Positions 6,381 to 42,658 of a DNA stretch of 64,000 nucleotides are shown here, piece by piece (position 1 is the first letter of the stretch; each line of letters opens with the position of its first letter). A program made the translations under genes and the position numbers. The notes under the pieces are model-generated. The model had not been told where the DNA came from. It worked only from the letters and a program-made list of their open reading frames with translations, and did no database searches. This stretch comes from Vitis vinifera (lineage: Eukaryota; Streptophyta; Magnoliopsida; Vitales; Vitaceae), in the NCBI RefSeq assembly GCF_030704535.1, contig NC_081817.1, positions 1,193,001-1,257,000 on the forward strand. Reading direction: 5' to 3'.

Positions 6381-6658
6381 GGTGGTGTTTGTTTTTTTGA
6401 CTTTTTATTAAAAATAATTTAGTTTTAAAATTTAGGTTATTTATTTTTCTACTTTTTCATGTTTTATTATAAACTTTTTACTAAATAGAAAAAATCAAAT
6501 ATGTAGCTTTTTCTAAATATAAAAAATAACATATTGGTTTTTTTTACTTTTTAATACTTAATAAAAATAAAATACTACAAAAACAAACAACCTAATATTT
6601 AACACTGTTAAGCATTAAGGTTCTATTTAGAATTAAATAAAAAAACAAACATCACCAC
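6381..6658. mobile_element. MITE-like element(s) abutting the sulfotransferase remnant
   Basis: The left end GGTGGTGTTTGTTTTTTTGA at 6381 is matched in inverted form by AAACAAACATCACCAC at about 6643-6658, and also by a second inner end near 6574-6592. The interior is very AT-rich and non-coding, which fits one or two nested non-autonomous DNA elements. No clear target duplication was seen. The element ends about where sulfotransferase similarity begins, so it may mark the break that removed the gene's 5' part. Confidence 0.5.
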
Positions 6659-6659
6659 A

Positions 6660-8216
6660 ACCTCGTTATCCAAGACTGGTACCGCATGGCTCAAAGCCCT
6701 CACTTCTCCATCATCAACCACAACTCCTCCTCCTCTGATCCTCTCCTCACCCACAACCCCCACGAGCTCATTCCTCTCCTGGAGCTGGAATCCTTCGGCG
6801 AAGACCCCAAAAACAATATCCAAGATATCCCTTCTCCAAGGATCCTCAGCACCCACCTCAATCTCCTCAACCTGCCCGACTCCGTCCTGAGCTCCGGCTG
6901 CCGGGTCCTCTACATTGCCCGCAACCCCATGGACACGCTCGTCTCGTACTGGCACTTCTTCAACAAGCCGCTCGGCTTCTCAGTCCTCTGGACGTGGTTT
7001 ATGAGGAGTTCTGCAGTGGGACTTGTTGTCGCCTCGCGTATCCGGTGGTCCACGTTGCTGCTATATGGATGGACACGTGATTCTCAACACACAAGGGGTT
7101 CTTGATTCAGCGGTTGCACCTGCAAAAGGCATCCGGACAGGGTGTCCGGACGCACCCTCCGATGGTTTTGTTAGCCATGGTGAGAGAGAGATATATAAAT
7201 CAGTTGGCCTTTTACTAGGTATCAAGAGGTTACCAGGGGATCCCTTTCTTCTTCGTGCGAAGGTATATATATACAGCTTCAGGGGTACTGTTCCTCTCAT
7301 TAATGGTGAGGAGATATTTTATGTTGTGATGATGACAATAGGTGTTAGTAGGAGCATTATCGCCCTACGAACGACCGTCAGAAACCATGGTAGGTGATGC
7401 GGCTGTCAGAGATCGTGGACAGTGATTATGTAGAATGATCGTGGGAAGTGACTTGCTGTCACTTCCCCTTGTCTTCTCACTCTGCAGGTGATGAGATGTG
7501 GGTCATGGCTGCTTGTTGTGATTGCGTGTAAGACTCGCTTTACTTTAATTGACCATCCAAACGATTTATATCCGGATGGCTCATGCTGATCATCCGGATG
7601 TGTTGTGGAGACCATTCGGATGTCTACGCTCTGCCTGCATCGTTTGCTCTTCCTTGGATAGGGCTTGGCTTTCCTTGAGGTGGTCCGGATAGGATAACTG
7701 CACCATGCATACCTTTAGGGGAATCCAGATGATGATGGTCCGGATGATAATATGTGCCACGCGTCACCATGAACTGCGTGCCACGTGTTTCTCAAGGGGA
7801 GGGGTCCCTACAGGACTGTTCCGGGCGGTTTGTATTTTGATCATGTTCTGGAGTACAGGAAGGAGAAAGAGAAGGAGAGTCTACTGTTTTTGACGTACGA
7901 GGAGCTGAAGGAGGACCCGGAAAAGCATGTGAAGAGGCTTGCAGAGTTCTTGGGATGTTCGCTGGCTTCATCTGAGATCAAGGAGATTGTGAAGAAGAGC
8001 AGTTATCAGAGGCTCCGAAACTTGGATGTGAATCAGAATGGATCAGAAAAGGTTCACTGGAGTGGAATTGGGTTTGGGTCTTTTTTCAGGCAGGGAGTTG
8101 TTGGAGATTGGAAGAACCATTTGAGTCCAGAGATGGTGCAACGGCTCGACCAGATTGCGAGCCAGAAGTTTGAAGGAAGTGGTTTAGAGTTAGAATCCAT
8201 TGTTAGATCTTCATGA
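6660..8216 (+). pseudogene. Cytosolic sulfotransferase (SOT) pseudogene, interrupted by a solo LTR
   Basis: Two blocks, about 6660-7023 and 7818-8216, match the plant PAPS-dependent sulfotransferase family, which transfers sulfate to flavonols, brassinosteroids or hydroxyjasmonate. The left block has the PAPS-binding KTGTAWLKAL stretch (6672-6701), then LLTHNPHELIPLLELE, LPSPRILSTHL and the RNPMDTLVSYWHFFNK region. The right block has FDHVLEYRK, LFLTYEELKEDPEKH and the C-terminal FFRQGVVGDWKNH motif that contacts the cofactor. It ends in TGA at 8214-8216. About the first 60 residues of the family are missing. The KTGT block is in a different frame from LLTHNPHE, so there is a shift near 6703-6710. 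A second shift lies near 6985-6995, before DVVYEEFCSGT. A 789-bp LTR sits inside that conserved stretch. The gene is dead. Confidence 0.85.
7024..7812 (+). mobile_element. Solo LTR of an LTR retrotransposon (copy 1)
   Basis: The element begins TGTTG and ends CCTACA, and is flanked by a perfect 5-bp target duplication, GGACT (7019-7023 and 7813-7817). No internal coding region is present, so it is a solo LTR, the usual product of recombination between two LTRs. A second copy in opposite orientation lies at 30402-31118. It contains TATA-like runs near 7190 and 7265 and many TCCGGA motifs. The superfamily (Copia or Gypsy) cannot be decided from an LTR alone. Age cannot be measured without a partner LTR. 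The two copies differ clearly in length and sequence, which suggests they are not very recent. Confidence 0.85.
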
Positions 8217-25850: not shown

Positions 25851-28453
25851 AAACACAACGAGAACGTTGTGTCATACAAAATTAAAACCCTCATATGGGG
25901 GCCCTCATTGTGTTCCATGAGATTATTGAACCAAACAAATAGACGAGGTGAAACAAACCTCCACATAAGAGTTAAAGATTGGCTCTGATTTTATTTGCAA
26001 TGATATGCATTTAATCGTGTAAAATTGTTTGCTTTAGGTTCAAAAGGGTCCTTATGACTTTAAAACGCGTTACAAAATTAAAGTGAACTATACTTATATA
26101 ATATAAAAAAAATTTCTCACCTAATTAATATAAGAAATGACAATAAAAATTATTCTTTATACGTATTAAAAATTTCATCTTGATCATTTGTATTTTTGAG
26201 GTGGATTTTCATATGAAAGCGATATATTTTTTATTTTAAAAAATTCATTTTATTGTTATCGAAGTCACCGTTTAATCGACAATGCATAATATCTTGGTAA
26301 CCCTTTTGGTGCACAATGAAAGATTTTTCAATTTAACCGACTTTAAAACCTTTCTCCACAAATTACAAGAATTACTACTTGTAAAGTGTCAAAGCAAGAT
26401 ATGATTAAAAATTTTATGGATAATGATTCAAATACTTGGCAATTTTAGGGTCACATATGAAGGGGAATAGTAACAAACAATACATGGAGTATGTTTCAAG
26501 AAGTTGAATTTTTGATGGGACATTCTCAATGTGGGCCAAAAGTTCTCTCATAGAATAGTATACAGCCATAAGAATATGCCTCAATGCCACTACACTTATC
26601 TTATATTTGCCACTATCACAAAAACCCCACCAACAAGCCCTCACTTATTTTCTTGTCCATTGTCTAATGGGTCTTTGTTAGCTTTATTTTTCTAAGAATA
26701 TTTTGTATTTCCTTAAACTTTGGTATAAGGGCACTAGCATATAAAAATATGATATGGTGACATGATACCCTTGAAAAATAAAGCCCAAGAATATCAAACT
26801 GATGGGTTTAGATTTGTTTAAATAAGCTTCCTAATTTTTATTTAATTATTTAATTTTTAAATAATAGTAATTTAAATTAAAATTTTTGAAAATAATTTAT
26901 AAGAGCATAAGTTAAGTAATTTTTTTTACATGAGTTTATACTTTTTAAATAAAAATTTATACTTTTAAAAATAAAAACAATAAATGTATCTAGATGAAGC
27001 CTTAGGTGAATGACCTCAATAAACTTAATTTTCTTGAAGAGAAAAAATAAATCTAAAAATAGAAAAAATATTTTTTATCATAGAAACTTATTAAAAAATA
27101 AACTAAAACTCTTATGATATAAGCTTTAACATTATGAATTTAAGTTTGATGATGTTTGTTTTTTTTTTTCTCTTAATTTTAAATAGAACTTAAAACTAAA
27201 AAAACAAAAACCCTCGATTTTCTAACAAAAGCTAAAAAGAAAAAGTCATCTCCACCAAGCCCTAATATCTTTAAATCATTATGGCAAGTATAGAGTTAGT
27301 GACCATTCTTCCATTAGCAACATTAATGGAATAAAAATTATTTTGCCCTTACAAAAGTGGCAAATGCCCAAATTTCTTTAGCCTTTTATACTGCCCCTTC
27401 TAATTTGTAGCTAATTCTAAGCTCTTTTGTAGAGGAGGGGTTGGGCGATTCTTGCAACTTATCCCAAATTGACAAGTGGAAATTAAGGGGGTTTTAGTAT
27501 ATATTTTTTTTAAATAATGAAAAAATTAGAAGTAATTTTTTTATGGTTCAATCTATTTTGCATTTTGAGAATTTATATATATATATATATATATTTTTGT
27601 TTTGTTATAATGAGGATGGTTTTGACATTTAAAATTTTTTTTATTTGGAAAAATAATTTTAAATAATATGAGTTGTTGAGGCAAAACATTTTTTTTTAAA
27701 AAGTTTTTTATTTAAAAATTGAACTATATTAAAAGCAAATATAATTTATAAATAAATATTATAAATTCTTATAATTTATTTCACATTAAACGTTTCCTTC
27801 ATGCAAGCTACAACTGAACAATAAATGCAACAATTTTGGACTAATCTTGATTCGTGGGCTAATAAACTTCATCCAACGTCTCAAACTTTTGGAGCCCATG
27901 CAAATCCAACCATTCATTTGACGGGAATGGGAAAATCAGAGGACAAAGATCATGCCACGTGGAAAGCGATCACGTCCTGCACGTGACGTCTAGAACTCTC
28001 CTATGTCCTTTTTAGTCACAAGACAGTATGTATTCATTGTATTCACATTTTTAGTTATTATTTTTTATTTTTTCGAAAAATGGAATCAAACGATAAGTCA
28101 AAAACAAATCAAAATAAGGCAATCGGAGGAATACATATTTATTGAAATATGAAACCATTTTATTACACACTGGTGATGAAGATATGACCAAGAAGGCATC
28201 TCCATCTGATTGGTTCTTCCAAACTCTGACACACGGTACAATACTGCAACCAAAGTACTGGATAACTAAGACACACTGGATGAAGAAACAAAAGAGCCAA
28301 ACAGAACCTTGGACTCCACATCCACCAGACACGAGAGATTCCGGTGAGTTCAGCCCATATGGAAATCGGGAGTGGCAGCCAAATCACTCCTTCTTTATTT
28401 ATTTATTGTATATTATTATATTGCGTACGGCTGCAAGTGATCGGCACGTTTCC
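25851..28453. other. Spacer with a dispersed copy of the 2.1-kb unit tail
   Basis: No coding exon is supported. Around 26030-26160 a diverged copy of the array tail occurs (AGGGTCCTTATGACTTTAAAACGCG, then CTATACTTATATAATAT and a TTTCTCACCTAAT block), outside the tandem array. 26800-27800 is AT-rich. 28140-28453 is the likely 3' UTR of the minus-strand WUN1-type gene. Confidence 0.55.
27956..27990. promoter_or_regulatory. Dense ACGT-element cluster
   Basis: Two CACGTG boxes (27956-27961 and 27980-27985), one CACGTC and one TGACGTC fall within 35 bp. This is a strong bZIP-type cluster. It lies about 460 bp beyond the stop of the WUN1-type gene, with no promoter-proximal exon in sight. Confidence 0.5.
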
Positions 28454-28978
28454 TTATATTGCCAGGACAAGACCCGGAACCGATTTTCCGACCCGATCCG
28501 AGAAGCTGCTCTCCCAGACGGAGGGGCAATGGCGCGACGGCGGCGAGGGAGTCGACGACGACGACGCGGCAGAGATCGACGACGAGGGTGACGTCGTGAA
28601 GTCGGAGTTGGAGAGACGGGTGACGGTGAGGGAGGTGTTGAAGTACTCTCGGACTTGGGTTATTACCCCATCAGTGACCGTCCAGGCGTGGACCCAGGCG
28701 ATTGAACCGCTGTGATCGCAGCCCTCGGCGAGGACTGTCGAACCGAAAGACGCGAAGGCGAGTGGCTCGAAGACAAATGACTCGTCGGATGAGACACCAG
28801 TGAGCAAGCGCATCATAAACTGGTGGGAAGGCGGGCCATGGAACCACCACTCGAGGTCGGCGGCGAGAAGTCGATGGACCGTGTCGACGTCACGTGAGCC
28901 TAAGGCTTCATATAGGGCGCGTACCACCCTTTGGTTACTCGCATCAACCTCCTCCAGAATTTCCGGTGAGTTAGCCAG
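28454..28978 (-). CDS. Wound-induced protein WUN1/WI12-type, SnoaL/NTF2-like fold, non-AUG start likely
   Basis: Single exon on the minus strand, stop TAA at 28454-28456. The product carries the WUN1/WI12 family core: NQRVVRALYEALGSRDVDTV, LEWWFHGPPSHQFMMRLLTG, FASFGSTVLAEG, WVHAWTVTDGVITQVREYFN and a serine-rich tail. The fold is SnoaL/NTF2-like; the biochemical role is unknown, and expression follows wounding, senescence and pathogens in the family. The frame is open up to the TATA box (29099-29105) but has no ATG before the conserved region. The first in-frame ATG (MMRLLTG) would cut off the conserved first helices. CUG codons at 28976-28978 (GAA CTG GCT) and 28955-28957 (ATT CTG GAG) have good contexts (purine at -3, G at +4). 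The start given is the upstream CUG. Three W-box cores lie within 29355-29430. Confidence 0.8.
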   Translation of the reverse strand: MANSPEILEEVDASNQRVVRALYEALGSRDVDTVHRLLAADLEWWFHGPPSHQFMMRLLTGVSSDESFVFEPLAFASFGSTVLAEGCDHSGSIAWVHAWTVTDGVITQVREYFNTSLTVTRLSNSDFTTSPSSSISAASSSSTPSPPSRHCPSVWESSFSDRVGKSVPGLVLAI

Positions 28979-29098
28979 TTCTGGTAGAGACTCCGGCGAG
29001 CTAATTACTAGAGAGAGAGTAATTTCAGGAGAGAGAAATGGAAGAAAGAGAAAGCTCTGAGAGACTCGGTAAGGATTCAAGCGAGGAGGTTGCGGGCC

Positions 29099-29105
29099 TT
29101 ATATA
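29099..29105 (-). promoter_or_regulatory. TATA box of the WUN1-type gene
   Basis: TATATAA on the minus strand, about 120 bp before the first good CUG. It places transcription start near 29070, so an upstream AUG in the transcript is unlikely. Confidence 0.7.
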
Positions 29106-29354
29106 GGCGAGTGGATGAGGAAAGGTTGGGATCCTCTGTTTCTATCTCTTTTTCCATAAACTGCACCGAACAATAAGACGTGGATGATTGGGAATTTTGT
29201 GAAAAGAAATGGGGATTTTGGGAATATAACTAATCAACGTCTGGAGACCATGGTGTCACGTGGCGGCTTGGGAGTGGCAAGTCGAAAAGGACCAGTCAGC
29301 CTACTTTTGTTGTGGTGTGGGACAAGATGTGGGGCCCATTGGGACCAATGAAAA

Positions 29355-29430
29355 GTCAAGCCAACTTTTTTGACCCCACACGTTTGAAATGGTCGACACG
29401 AGGATGGGCCGGCTTGTATACTATTTGACT
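29355..29430 (-). promoter_or_regulatory. W-box cluster upstream of the WUN1-type gene
   Basis: TTGAC cores occur at 29355-29359 (as GTCAA), 29370-29375 (TTGACC) and about 29425-29430 (TTGACT). These are WRKY sites and fit wound or pathogen induction. A CACGTG box lies near 29260. Confidence 0.55.
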
Positions 29431-30401
29431 ATCTACTATCCTCACTTATTTAGTTATTTACTTCTTTTCTGTCTGATTGTAGCCTTCTAGGGAAAAATTT
29501 GTGTATCTGTCACTAAAAAGCTGGGTCGACCTCATCTATGAAAACATTAGGACCCACATCCGGTACGTGTTTGAATTTAAATTATTTCTTACTTTTCTCA
29601 TATTCTCTTTCTTTTTTCTTTTATTATTATTCTTATTTTATATCATTCTATTTTCCTTGTTACACATTAAAAAACAAGAAAGATATTATTTGATTTTTTA
29701 TTTAATAATTAAAATATAATTAAGGCTTCATTTGAAATAATTTTGTATTTTTAGCTTTAATTAAAAATTGAAATTGAAACCAAATTCATAATTAAAAATA
29801 TATATATATTGGTATTGTAAAAATTATATTAAACGTAAAAAATTTATAAAAATAAAATAAACGTTTATAAGAAATAATATTTTTTTTTAACTTTAATATT
29901 AAACATTTTTTTTTTGAAATTATAAGTCTTTTGAACAAATTAAGCACAAAAGATCTTATTAAACTTGAAAAGAAATTTAGTATTTGATAACTATTTTTTA
30001 CTTCTTTAAAATAAAAAAATAGAAAAATATGTTTAATAATTAAAAAAATGATATTTAAAAAATATATATTTTAATTTTTTTCACTTATTTTCAAGGATTG
30101 TTTAAAAAATAATTATAAAAAAAATATAAAATGATTTAAAATAAAATAATGAATATAAAAATTATTTTAAAATATATTTATAAATATTTAAAATAATTTA
30201 AAAACATTTAAAAACATTTAAACAAAATTCTATTTTCCAAAATATTATAAAATAAATTTTAAAAACCATTATAAAAAAACTATTTTTCATTATTATTTTT
30301 AAAAATAGTTATGAAATTGAGTTTTAATTTCTTAAAAATGGCTTATAAAACCACTGCAAAAAATAAATAAATTAAAAATATATTTAAAATATATTAAAAA
30401 C
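29431..30401. other. AT-rich spacer
   Basis: No gene seen. Long AT-rich stretches resemble decayed inverted-repeat elements and continue on the far side of the solo LTR at 30402-31118. Confidence 0.6.
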
Positions 30402-31118
30402 TGTAAGGACCCCTCCCCACACGTGGCACACATCTCCTGATGATGCGTGACACACATTCTCATCCGGATTTCCCCAAAAGTACACGTGACACGCTTCTCC
30501 TATTCGGATTACCTCAAGAGGAGGCACACGACACTCATAAACAGAACATCCGAACGACTTCCACAAATGCATTCGGACGACCAAAATAGGTCATCCGGAT
30601 ACGTTTGTCCAGATCATTGACTAAAATAAGCAAGTCTTACACGTTATCACAACAGCCTGCCATGGCCCACGCTCCACCACCTATAGGGTGAAAGGACAAG
30701 AATGAAGTGACAACAAGTTACTTCCTACGATCACTTCCCACAATTTCTGACAATCGCAGCAACTATCACTATCTCTGTCAGCCGCCCGTAGGGTGATGAT
30801 GGCCCTGCCACCACCTAGTGTCATCATGATAACACAAAATATCTCCTTGCCATTAAAGAGAGAAACAAAGCTTCTGAGACTATATATATGAACCTTCACA
30901 CAAAGGGGAAGGTAAGGTTGCTATACCTAGTAAAAGGCCAACTGATTTATCTCTCTCTTTGAACCATGACTGACAAAACCATAGGAGGGTGCGTCCGGAC
31001 ATCCCGTCCGGACGCCTTTTGCAGGTGGAACGACTGAATCAAGAATCTATATTGGTTGAGATCGTGCGTCCATCCATTTGGTAACTACGTGGATCACCAG
31101 ATACGCGAGGCCTCAACA
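30402..31118 (-). mobile_element. Solo LTR of the same family (copy 2)
   Basis: Read on the minus strand, it begins TGTTGAGGCCTCGCG and ends CCTTACA. The flanks show a perfect 5-bp target duplication, AAAAC (30397-30401 and 31119-31123, plus strand). It shares most of its length with copy 1 at 7024-7812 but is about 70 bp shorter. There is no internal region. It is inserted in AT-rich, MITE-like sequence. Family is LTR retrotransposon, superfamily undetermined. Confidence 0.87.
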
Positions 31119-39617: not shown

Positions 39618-41285
39618 CTAATTTGCTTCTCTTCGTATCAATGATGGAACAGGTGGTATCATAATTTCATCCTTACCTCCTGCAGGAGACTCTTCCTCCA
39701 CCACGGGTAGATTCCTTTCGGGACTGTAATATCCCTTTGAAGCTCTGCTTGAACTTGGAGAGGCAGCTATGATTTTCAATGGGCTGGCACTGTTCCCAAG
39801 TGGAGAACTTGAGCCGGACCTGATCTGACTCACACCATCTTCACGAGGCAAAGGTGAAATTGGCAGCTGACTACCACCATCCATTTTTTTCCTGCAAAAT
39901 GTATTTTCTACAATATCATAGGAATTCCCGGTCCTCACTTCCTGAGAAAGAGAACACCAACAACAGCAAAGCCACAGTGCACAATCAGTAACAGCAGGTT
40001 CACCACAACAGAAGTGATAAGCTGGCAAATTGAATCTCTTTCTCATCTGAATCCTCCAGAATCCGCCATAGAGTAAGCCAAACACACAAAGAATAAGCCC
40101 CATCGTCCCCAAAGCCGCCCTTGCGGTGTCATTATCAATATTAACAGCTGCCAAGTTGAAAATCCAGAAAGGAGCCATACAAAACAAAAGAAAAGTAGCA
40201 ATATGAACATACATGTTTCCAAATCCAAGTCTCTCCATATTCCACCCAAAAACACAAAAACTGCAGAACAGTGAGAGATATGCTAGAGAAATATCATCCC
40301 AGAAATCAAGAACCCCTCCACTCCATTCTGGCCTACTCTCGACAACCCTCTGCTCATCCCTTGATGCAAATGAGAACCTCCTCTCCATCGACTTTCGTCT
40401 CAACTGGCTTGACCTGTTTGAGTCAGTTGTGATTGGAACTTGTGCTTCCTCATCCGTTTCAGAATCATACTCCTTCCCAAGGGGGCTAACAATGGTATAA
40501 ACACCAGCAATTGCAGGTGCACCAATTGCAACAGCTATGCATATTCCAACTCCTATAGCGGGTCGCTCAGATCTCCTGTACCCCAAGTTAAGACCACAAA
40601 GCGCATACTGAGCAAAACAATTGATATGGAGTAGAATAACAACAACCATCATGTGCGCCCATTCATGGGGCTTATAAGTCCCATTCTTGCAGTAAATCTT
40701 TCTAAGTTTAGAAATGTCTTCTGGCCTCCATCTGCAAAGAAGGACAAGATGGTAGAATCGCTTTGGGTGTTGATACAAACACATAAGAGTAAACAGCGCA
40801 TTGAGAATTTGATTATTAACTTCAAACCACGCATCTCTCTGAGACTTCTTTGGTAGTTCATGGTTTAACATCCCTGTCATGACAAGGAACAAAATCGCAC
40901 CCGAGACAGCAACACACACAATCCACGCAAAAAGGGCCATGTTCATGGGGTCTCTAATCCATTCTTTGCACATTTTCCTGAGTGAAACCCAATCAATTTT
41001 CCGCATAAAAACCTCATTGAAACGCTCCCTAATATGATGACTGGAAGAAGGCACAGCTCGTGAAAGCTCATCTCTCCCCTCAGCTAGTTGCCGAAATTTG
41101 GCTGAGCCAAATTTGAGCAACCTCACTCTACCAAGAAACCTTTTCTTAAACCCTTTTTTAGTGTCTTCATCACTAATTAACCCTCTTTGAGATGTTGAAA
41201 TGTGAAGAGGAACCAGACCCTCTACTTTGCTCCCATTGCTTTCCTCAATTTCCTCTTTGAGTTCACCGTTATCAGTGGAAACCAT
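39618..41285 (-). CDS. PLAC8 / DUF2985 family membrane protein
   Basis: One uninterrupted minus-strand exon of 555 residues. The start chosen, ATG at 41285 (MVSTDNGELKEE), has A at -3 and G at +4. The frame stays open upstream to about 41399 but has no ATG there. Order of parts: a charged N-terminal third with a basic KKGFKKRFLGRVRLLKFG segment; a first membrane helix (about 116-139, MALFAWIVCVAVSGAILFLV); the DUF2985 region with VNNQILNALFTLMCLYQHP and CRWRPEDISKLRK; several more helices; the cysteine-rich PLAC8 stretch (YHFCCGEP, then DCALWLCCCWC); and a serine- and proline-rich tail. Related PLAC8 proteins are linked to cell size and to cadmium or calcium transport, but the role of this subclass is unknown. 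A probable 5' UTR donor (ATAG|GTACGT) lies near 41712. Confidence 0.9.
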   Translation of the reverse strand: MVSTDNGELKEEIEESNGSKVEGLVPLHISTSQRGLISDEDTKKGFKKRFLGRVRLLKFGSAKFRQLAEGRDELSRAVPSSSHHIRERFNEVFMRKIDWVSLRKMCKEWIRDPMNMALFAWIVCVAVSGAILFLVMTGMLNHELPKKSQRDAWFEVNNQILNALFTLMCLYQHPKRFYHLVLLCRWRPEDISKLRKIYCKNGTYKPHEWAHMMVVVILLHINCFAQYALCGLNLGYRRSERPAIGVGICIAVAIGAPAIAGVYTIVSPLGKEYDSETDEEAQVPITTDSNRSSQLRRKSMERRFSFASRDEQRVVESRPEWSGGVLDFWDDISLAYLSLFCSFCVFGWNMERLGFGNMYVHIATFLLFCMAPFWIFNLAAVNIDNDTARAALGTMGLILCVFGLLYGGFWRIQMRKRFNLPAYHFCCGEPAVTDCALWLCCCWCSLSQEVRTGNSYDIVENTFCRKKMDGGSQLPISPLPREDGVSQIRSGSSSPLGNSASPLKIIAASPSSSRASKGYYSPERNLPVVEEESPAGGKDEIMIPPVPSLIRREAN

Positions 41286-42658
41286 TCTCACACCAGATTC
41301 AAAAACTAGGTTTCTGGGGTTTTTCCAATTCCACAAATCTTCAAACTTCAAAGTGTGCAAATCACCATGAATTTCAGCTTCCCAATTCCCAGGTGACCCA
41401 CTTCAATTTCAGTTCCATTCCACCCTGTTCTCCCAACTCATCACAAAATCACATAAACTAGTTAAAACCGATGTTGCCAGTGAAGATCTCGCAATCCAAA
41501 AGCCAAAACCATATATCCAGAATGAAATTCACAACAATTTCACAAACTATAGAATATGATCACTACCCATCAAGAATAAATCATAAATTCCAATTCATGA
41601 AACACACCCAGAAAAAAATGCCCTTTGAAAGGAAGAATTTAATTTTTACATAAAAGGAAAGTACAGTTTTTTTTTTCAAAAGACCATGAAGATAATAAAA
41701 GCTAAAACGTACCTATGGTCCCATGATGATGGCAGAGGAACAGATGTACAGAGAGTCCAATATAATCTGGAAGGAGACAGCTCTAGAATCCAAAGCCGAG
41801 AGCATATCCTTGTACTGGGTGGAAATTTCCTTGACGTTATAACTTCTTCCAAAAAGGGTAAAAAAAATAAAGAATGATTGAAAAAAAAAGACCCAAAAAG
41901 ACGTGGACTTTGCTGACTTGTTAAGCTAGGAATCCATCCACATGCTGCTTTCTCTTTCTTTCTTTCTTTTTTTTTTTTCCTAAAAAATAAAATTATTTAA
42001 ATAAAAAAAATCTGCCATTTTTCAAGTCAACCCTAGTCAAATTCGTCAATTTTTAAAAGGATAAATTCCATAAAATTATCTATATATATAAGCAAGCTTT
42101 TAACTCCTTACGTCCAATAAATTTTTATTTTTAACAATTTTTTAAAATATTTTTCATTGTTTTTAAGAGTAAATTATACAAATTTATTCCTATTGGATAG
42201 GATTACTATTTCCAAGTTGTTACATATTAACGCTATGACTTTGGAATGAACTCCTCCTTCAGGTTTTTAATGCACAAATGAGATATAAATGTCATTAATT
42301 TAAACAAACGGTTATTGAAGTTACAAATGGATCAATTATACTGTTAATAATGGCATTTTTGCAAATGATTCTCTATTCATAAAAGCACAACCATTTAAAT
42401 TCAATCATTTTCGCTTGAGTCCGACATTGAGAATTCAGAAATGGTAGGTGTGTGTATACAAGCAAGGAAAACAATGATCACATTAGAACCTCACCCTCAG
42501 AAATGCAAGCATAGACATTCTGATTGAAACCCAAATCAAGAAGATTTGAAGAAAGCAAAAAGAAAAAATTGGAGATCGTGAATGTGTGGCAGACACAACG
42601 GCATTATACAAAGAAATCATCCTGAACAAAACCCTGAAACGGAACCGAGAAATAGGAC
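41286..42658. other. 5' region of the PLAC8 gene and 3' flank of alpha-SNAP
   Basis: 41286-41860 holds the PLAC8 leader, probably with a 5' UTR intron, since a GTACGT donor is visible on the minus strand at 41712. 41890-42380 is AT-rich promoter or spacer. 42380-42658 is the likely 3' UTR of alpha-SNAP. Confidence 0.5.

Follow-up and report, generated by a model that had tools for sequence, protein, structure and literature searches.

In this work, we analyzed a WI12/WUN1 gene on the minus strand of contig C13 of Vitis vinifera, located in a 64,000-nucleotide (nt) stretch (NC_081817.1, positions 1,193,001 to 1,257,000; hereafter the window, whose own numbering gives the coordinates below). 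Our results point towards a gene that encodes a full NTF2/SnoaL-like WI12/WUN1 protein and whose main product is started at a CUG codon, a reading to which we assign a probability of about 0.7. The computation establishes (i) an open frame lacking an AUG, (ii) selection on the segment that precedes the first in-frame AUG, (iii) the same arrangement in a paralogue on C6 and (iv) an AUG placed before the domain in a paralogue on C8; from these we infer the use of the CUG codons, the order of their use and any control by stress. The features of the gene are as follows.

29105-29098 (-): TATA box TATATAAG, with the bounding in-frame stop inside the box
28979..29073 (-): probable 5' leader, pyrimidine-rich and AUG-free in every frame; its start assumes that transcription begins about 30 nt 3' of the TATA box, an estimated position
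28976..28978 (-): CUG1, proposed main start, GAA-CUG-GCU, giving Met-Ala; context gaaCUGg, G at -3 and G at +4
28955..28957 (-): CUG2, proposed secondary start, AUU-CUG-GAG; context attCUGg, A at -3 and G at +4; 21 nt 3' of CUG1
28454..28978 (-): proposed coding sequence from CUG1, a WI12/WUN1-type NTF2/SnoaL-like protein of 174 amino acids
28944-28900 (-): out-of-frame AUG open reading frame (ORF) of 14 codons; a second AUG at 28911 shares its stop
28817..28936 (-): conserved N-terminal part of the domain, 5' of any in-frame AUG, NQRVVRALYEAL...LEWWFHGPPSHQF
28813..28839 (-): out-of-frame 8-codon ORF from an AUG in CCAUGG; its UGA and the in-frame AUGs overlap
28811..28816 (-): first in-frame AUGs, ATGATG (MMRLLTG, 120 amino acids), inside the NTF2/SnoaL-like domain

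The AUG-less frame and its proposed protein

The minus-strand frame 29098-28454 is open over 214 codons followed by a TAA at 28456-28454, and it contains no in-frame ATG between the TATA box and 28816. The original prediction for this locus had described such a frame, open and AUG-less from the TATA box into the conserved core, together with two CUG codons preceded by a purine at -3 and followed by G at +4; its coordinates and codons, and the positions and contexts of both CUGs, were confirmed. From the TATA box to the conserved block, no other in-frame near-cognate codon has that context. Mononucleotide shuffling of the leader yielded a mean of 0.057 good-context CUGs (P of two or more, 0.0013) and, for the C6 leader, a mean of 0.049 (P = 0.0012), these P values being post hoc since the codon was picked after inspection; when any of the nine near-cognates is counted, shuffling gives on average 0.41 in the window gene and 0.39 in C6, against two observed in each. 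The first in-frame AUG, at 28816, lies in a weak context (U at -3, A at +4), the second, at 28813, has A at -3, and the AUGs at 28944, 28911 and 28839 that precede 28816 are all out of frame and all carry U at -3.

The protein matches the full WI12 model (PF07107, positions 1-104) with 146.9 bits against a cut-off of 27. In all three grape genes this model begins at the internal AUG, in the window gene at the second of the ATGATG pair, an indication that AUG-based annotation had truncated the proteins from which the family was assembled. The window gene shares with the WUN1/WI12/SAG20 family, which includes wound-induced proteins of potato and ice plant, the whole Pfam model, but when counted from CUG1 it adds 54 residues before the model start, completing the domain. 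The SnoaL_2 profile (PF12680, cut-off 27 bits) matches the window protein from position 1 with 23.6 bits, below the cut-off, as does the C8 protein with 18.2, whereas the C6 protein lies above it with 33.1; the piece preceding the AUG (28817-28978) matches by itself SnoaL_2 positions 1-32, below the family cut-off. A search against NCBIfam returned, for two of the three proteins, weak ketosteroid-isomerase matches that fell well short of the cut-off, and nothing else.

Structure prediction gives helices followed by a four-stranded curved sheet, with structural matches to solved NTF2/SnoaL-like members, so that the likeness to this fold (that of ketosteroid isomerase) extends to helices, sheet and profile match. 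It differs from the solved members in its low identity (6-28% among the 50 structural matches listed) and in a C-terminal tail with WI12-specific motifs, its own fold being a predicted one. According to the models, the AUG-started form of 120 amino acids would lack the first helices of the fold, a loss that the original prediction had stated for a start at MMRLLTG; 28816 is located inside the domain.

Paralogues and selection on the segment before the AUG

A search of the 495.6-Mb genome assembly (21 contigs) with the PF07107 profile found three genes above cut-off, namely the window gene on C13, one on C6 (locus L002) and one on C8 (locus L003); the conservation evidence thus consists of three paralogues of one genome. 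No further relative was found when viral contigs were searched with the window protein and other genome contigs with the alignment of the three proteins. Identity to the window protein, counted from CUG1, amounts to 64% for the C6 protein and 46% for the C8 protein. No in-frame AUG occurs in the C6 gene either, from its TATA box (L002:2082) down to MQLLTG (L002:1839), and an assembly error as origin of the missing AUG was therefore rejected. Its CUG1 (L002:1995-1993) lies in the same 9 nt, GAA-CUG-GCU (GAACUGGCU), as that of the window gene, its CUG2 (L002:1974-1972, GCG-CUG-GAG) follows at the same spacing of 21 nt, and just two in-frame near-cognates in good context, both CUG, occur between TATA box and conserved block. 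Three out-of-frame AUGs precede its in-frame AUG as well. The C8 gene, in turn, has an AUGGCA start in a strong context and its product opens with Met-Ala 5' of the same domain. The distance from TATA box to start is 127 nt (to CUG1) in the window gene, 87 nt (to CUG1) in C6 and 109 nt (to the AUG) in C8.

Comparison of the C13 and C6 genes shows how the segment before the AUG has evolved. In the block from NQR to the AUG, 30 of 40 residues are identical, with nonsynonymous (dN) and synonymous (dS) divergences of 0.156 and 1.12 (dN/dS about 0.14) and with 8, 4 and 17 mismatches at the first, second and third codon position; in the 68-codon core 3' of the AUG, 46 residues are identical and dN and dS are 0.208 and 1.65 (dN/dS about 0.13). 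The whole stretch between CUG1 and the AUG has 36 identities among 51 aligned residues, its mismatches by codon position being 13, 8 and 20 (P = 0.029 for the third-position excess, equal rates assumed). Constraint is lower between CUG1 and the conserved block (6 of 11 residues identical), and the 17 codons aligned upstream of CUG1 show 5 identities. Synonymous sites are saturated in the comparisons with C8. On the basis of dN/dS and codon-position pattern in these alignments, the conserved block before the AUG is protein-coding and under purifying selection at the protein level.

Taken together, selection before the AUG, the presence there of the N-terminal part of the domain, and two AUG-less paralogues sharing both CUGs support the CUG initiation put forward in the original prediction, as far as sequence comparison can tell. 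The second AUG-less copy, the AUG-bearing third copy, the three out-of-frame AUGs and the start of the Pfam model at the AUG go beyond it. We propose that ribosomes would scan the short AUG-free leader and initiate with initiator methionyl-tRNA at CUG1, and that part of them would pass it by leaky scanning and start at CUG2, with the loss of seven residues. The conserved NTF2 block would be retained in both products, and the one from CUG1 would open with Met-Ala, as does the AUG-started C8 protein. Ribosomes past both CUGs would meet the three out-of-frame AUGs before 28816, so that the 120-amino-acid protein would be minor. Limited reinitiation might occur, as each AUG-less gene carries an out-of-frame ORF of 8 codons (28813-28839 and L002:1839-1865), starting in CCAUGG in both, whose UGA overlaps the in-frame AUG and forms a possible termination-reinitiation site.

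Competing explanations

Several observations weigh against this proposal. The use of the CUGs is proposed from DNA sequence, and the sequences compared are only three, all from one genome. The out-of-frame AUGs with U at -3, together with the A at -3 of 28813, would permit some leaky scanning to the AUG. An in-frame AUG of the C6 gene (L002:2166), 84 nt 5' of the TATA box, would be usable if transcription started further upstream, and weak C13-C6 similarity detected by BLASTP reaches seven residues 5' of CUG1, so the start might be slightly further upstream. Columns with Leu in both genes retain the codon in 2 of 2 cases at the CUGs versus 3 of 11 elsewhere, numbers too small to be more than weak evidence alone. 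Besides, the stretch from CUG1 to the AUG is less constrained (dN 0.226, dS 0.838; ratio 0.27) than the 112 columns after the AUG (0.289, 2.17; 0.13), and both structure models are of moderate to low confidence. Finally, no conserved hairpin 3' of CUG1 was found in three windows around and after this codon compared with mononucleotide shuffles (z scores -2.13, -0.99 and -1.17 for the window gene; +0.55, -0.65 and -0.04 for C6); a downstream hairpin as enhancer of the CUG was discarded, the sole mildly structured window (-30 to +60, window gene) being without a C6 counterpart. Rfam gave no match up to an E value of 0.1 near the gene (27500-30500).

Initiation at some other non-AUG site, either mainly CUG2 or a near-cognate 5' of CUG1, is in our view unlikely. 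The context of CUG2 is a good one (A at -3, G at +4), the upstream protein similarity just mentioned would fit an earlier start, and in-frame AUUs exist upstream in both genes; these AUUs, however, lie at differing distances from CUG1 in each gene and lack G at +4, and scanning ribosomes would meet CUG1 first, the context of which is better conserved (9 of 9 nt). A spliced upstream exon supplying the AUG, with the conserved N-terminus as part of the second exon, is disfavoured by the sequence features of the locus and seems quite unlikely. Pyrimidine-rich stretches ending in AG do occur in the window leader (e.g. before 29007, 75% pyrimidine), C6 has an 85% pyrimidine stretch ending in AG just 5' of the TATA box, and acceptor-like AGs are found at equal distances from CUG1 in both genes (-76, +27 and +30); each of these three AGs is, however, a poor acceptor in at least one gene, the one at -76 falling in the C6 TATA box and those at +27 and +30 being preceded by only 30-50% pyrimidine. 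The ends of plant introns are expected to be U-rich, unlike the C6 leader, which is U-poor (26% over its last 100 nt). The 1.5 kb 5' of the C6 gene hold three ATGs from which a donor-like site is reached, in addition to the in-frame AUG 5' of the TATA box, but the 1.5 kb 5' of the window gene contain no ATG-to-donor candidate from a short list of donor patterns, and each of the three copies has a TATA box 87-127 nt 5' of the proposed start.

That translation really begins at the AUG at 28816, the conserved upstream segment being a relic or having a role in the RNA only, appears highly improbable. The PF07107 model starts there, as presumably do the database WUN1 proteins at the equivalent position, and the weak upstream AUGs of the window gene, or reinitiation after the 8-codon ORF in both genes, could deliver ribosomes to it. 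Selection at the protein level before the AUG and the predicted loss of the first helices contradict such a start, and three out-of-frame AUGs come before a codon whose own context is weak.

Significance, age and genomic neighbours

FCA, which encodes an RNA-binding protein, is the classic plant case of a CUG start; Simpson et al. (2010) reportedly proved by experiment that Arabidopsis FCA is translated from a CUG upstream of its first in-frame AUG. It resembles the gene studied here in being a plant nuclear gene with a conserved segment 5' of the first in-frame AUG and a likely CUG start, and it differs in that its start is experimentally proven, whereas the window gene has two CUGs 21 nt apart whose use is proposed from sequence. 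Near-cognate starts, mostly CUG, are prevalent in initiation profiling of Arabidopsis and tomato, according to the accessible part of PMC11062462. CUG initiation in plants is thus already known, and the WI12 gene would be an added case. A search limited to the available literature found no report of a non-AUG start for AT3G10985, nor one that treats wound induction and CUG or non-AUG initiation together in Arabidopsis; SAG20/WI12 may be listed in a prior survey, and the accessible part of a soybean WI12 study (PMC8753364) does not mention "start codon".

If CUG initiation holds, the standard description of WUN1/WI12 misses over a third of the folded domain, constructs and antibodies based on the AUG-started form probe a protein that may not fold, and the plant genes with a non-AUG main start gain a stress-response member with a pair of shared CUGs, the AUG-bearing C8 sister copy serving as a natural control. 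It is tempting to speculate, although we hold it less likely than not, that the CUG start is ancestral and general in the eudicot WUN1/WI12 group and was fixed before the gamma hexaploidy, in which case potato WUN1, ice plant WI12, Arabidopsis SAG20 and the Pfam model would all have been described in truncated form. A further possibility is that the CUG, a weak start followed by out-of-frame AUGs, keeps translation intrinsically low, a restraint that would be lifted if wounding or stress altered the stringency of start-codon selection. In the promoter, a G-box (CACGTG, a common element of stress and abscisic acid responses) is present at 29257-29262, about 150 nt 5' of the TATA box.

Regarding age, we take chromosomes 6, 8 and 13 to form one gamma triplet. 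The C13-C6 dS is 1.50 over the frame from CUG1, and 1.12 and 1.65 in two segments. In the accessible part of PMC3091711, grape gamma duplicates have a median synonymous divergence (Ks) of 1.22, and chromosomes 6 and 8 are described as homoeologous in the paleohexaploid ancestor. Neighbouring genes link C13 to C8: a gene encoding a PLAC8/DUF2985 protein of 594 amino acids (39621-41402) has its other matches only at two places on C8, and one for a 148-amino-acid protein has its only other match on C8, about 60 kb from the C8 WI12 copy; C6 and C8 are linked by a gene for a 280-amino-acid protein of a large family (49 matches), whose best other match (78%) is on C8. A further neighbour, an amino-acid transporter exon, had no match on C6 or C8, and the stretch compared contained no neighbour that would connect C13 directly to C6. 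From the dS values relative to the gamma Ks, together with the neighbour and homoeology links, the AUG-less C13/C6 pair plausibly dates from the gamma event. The C8 copy (L003, C8:11137039) is opposite in orientation to the other two relative to the shared neighbours, and may for this reason be inverted or older. Two grape WI12 genes in the accessible parts of earlier reports, VIT_08s0058g00800 on chromosome 8 (PMC4388344) and VIT_06s0004g07550 on chromosome 6 (PMC5432621), agree with the C8 and C6 copies.

One of the two C8 relatives of the PLAC8/DUF2985 gene has an internal TAG. Elsewhere in the window, at 6641-8213, a sulfotransferase domain is split (profile positions 30-131 and 134-255) by a gap of about 670 nt, either an intron or an insertion, which an open frame at 7005-7397 overlaps.
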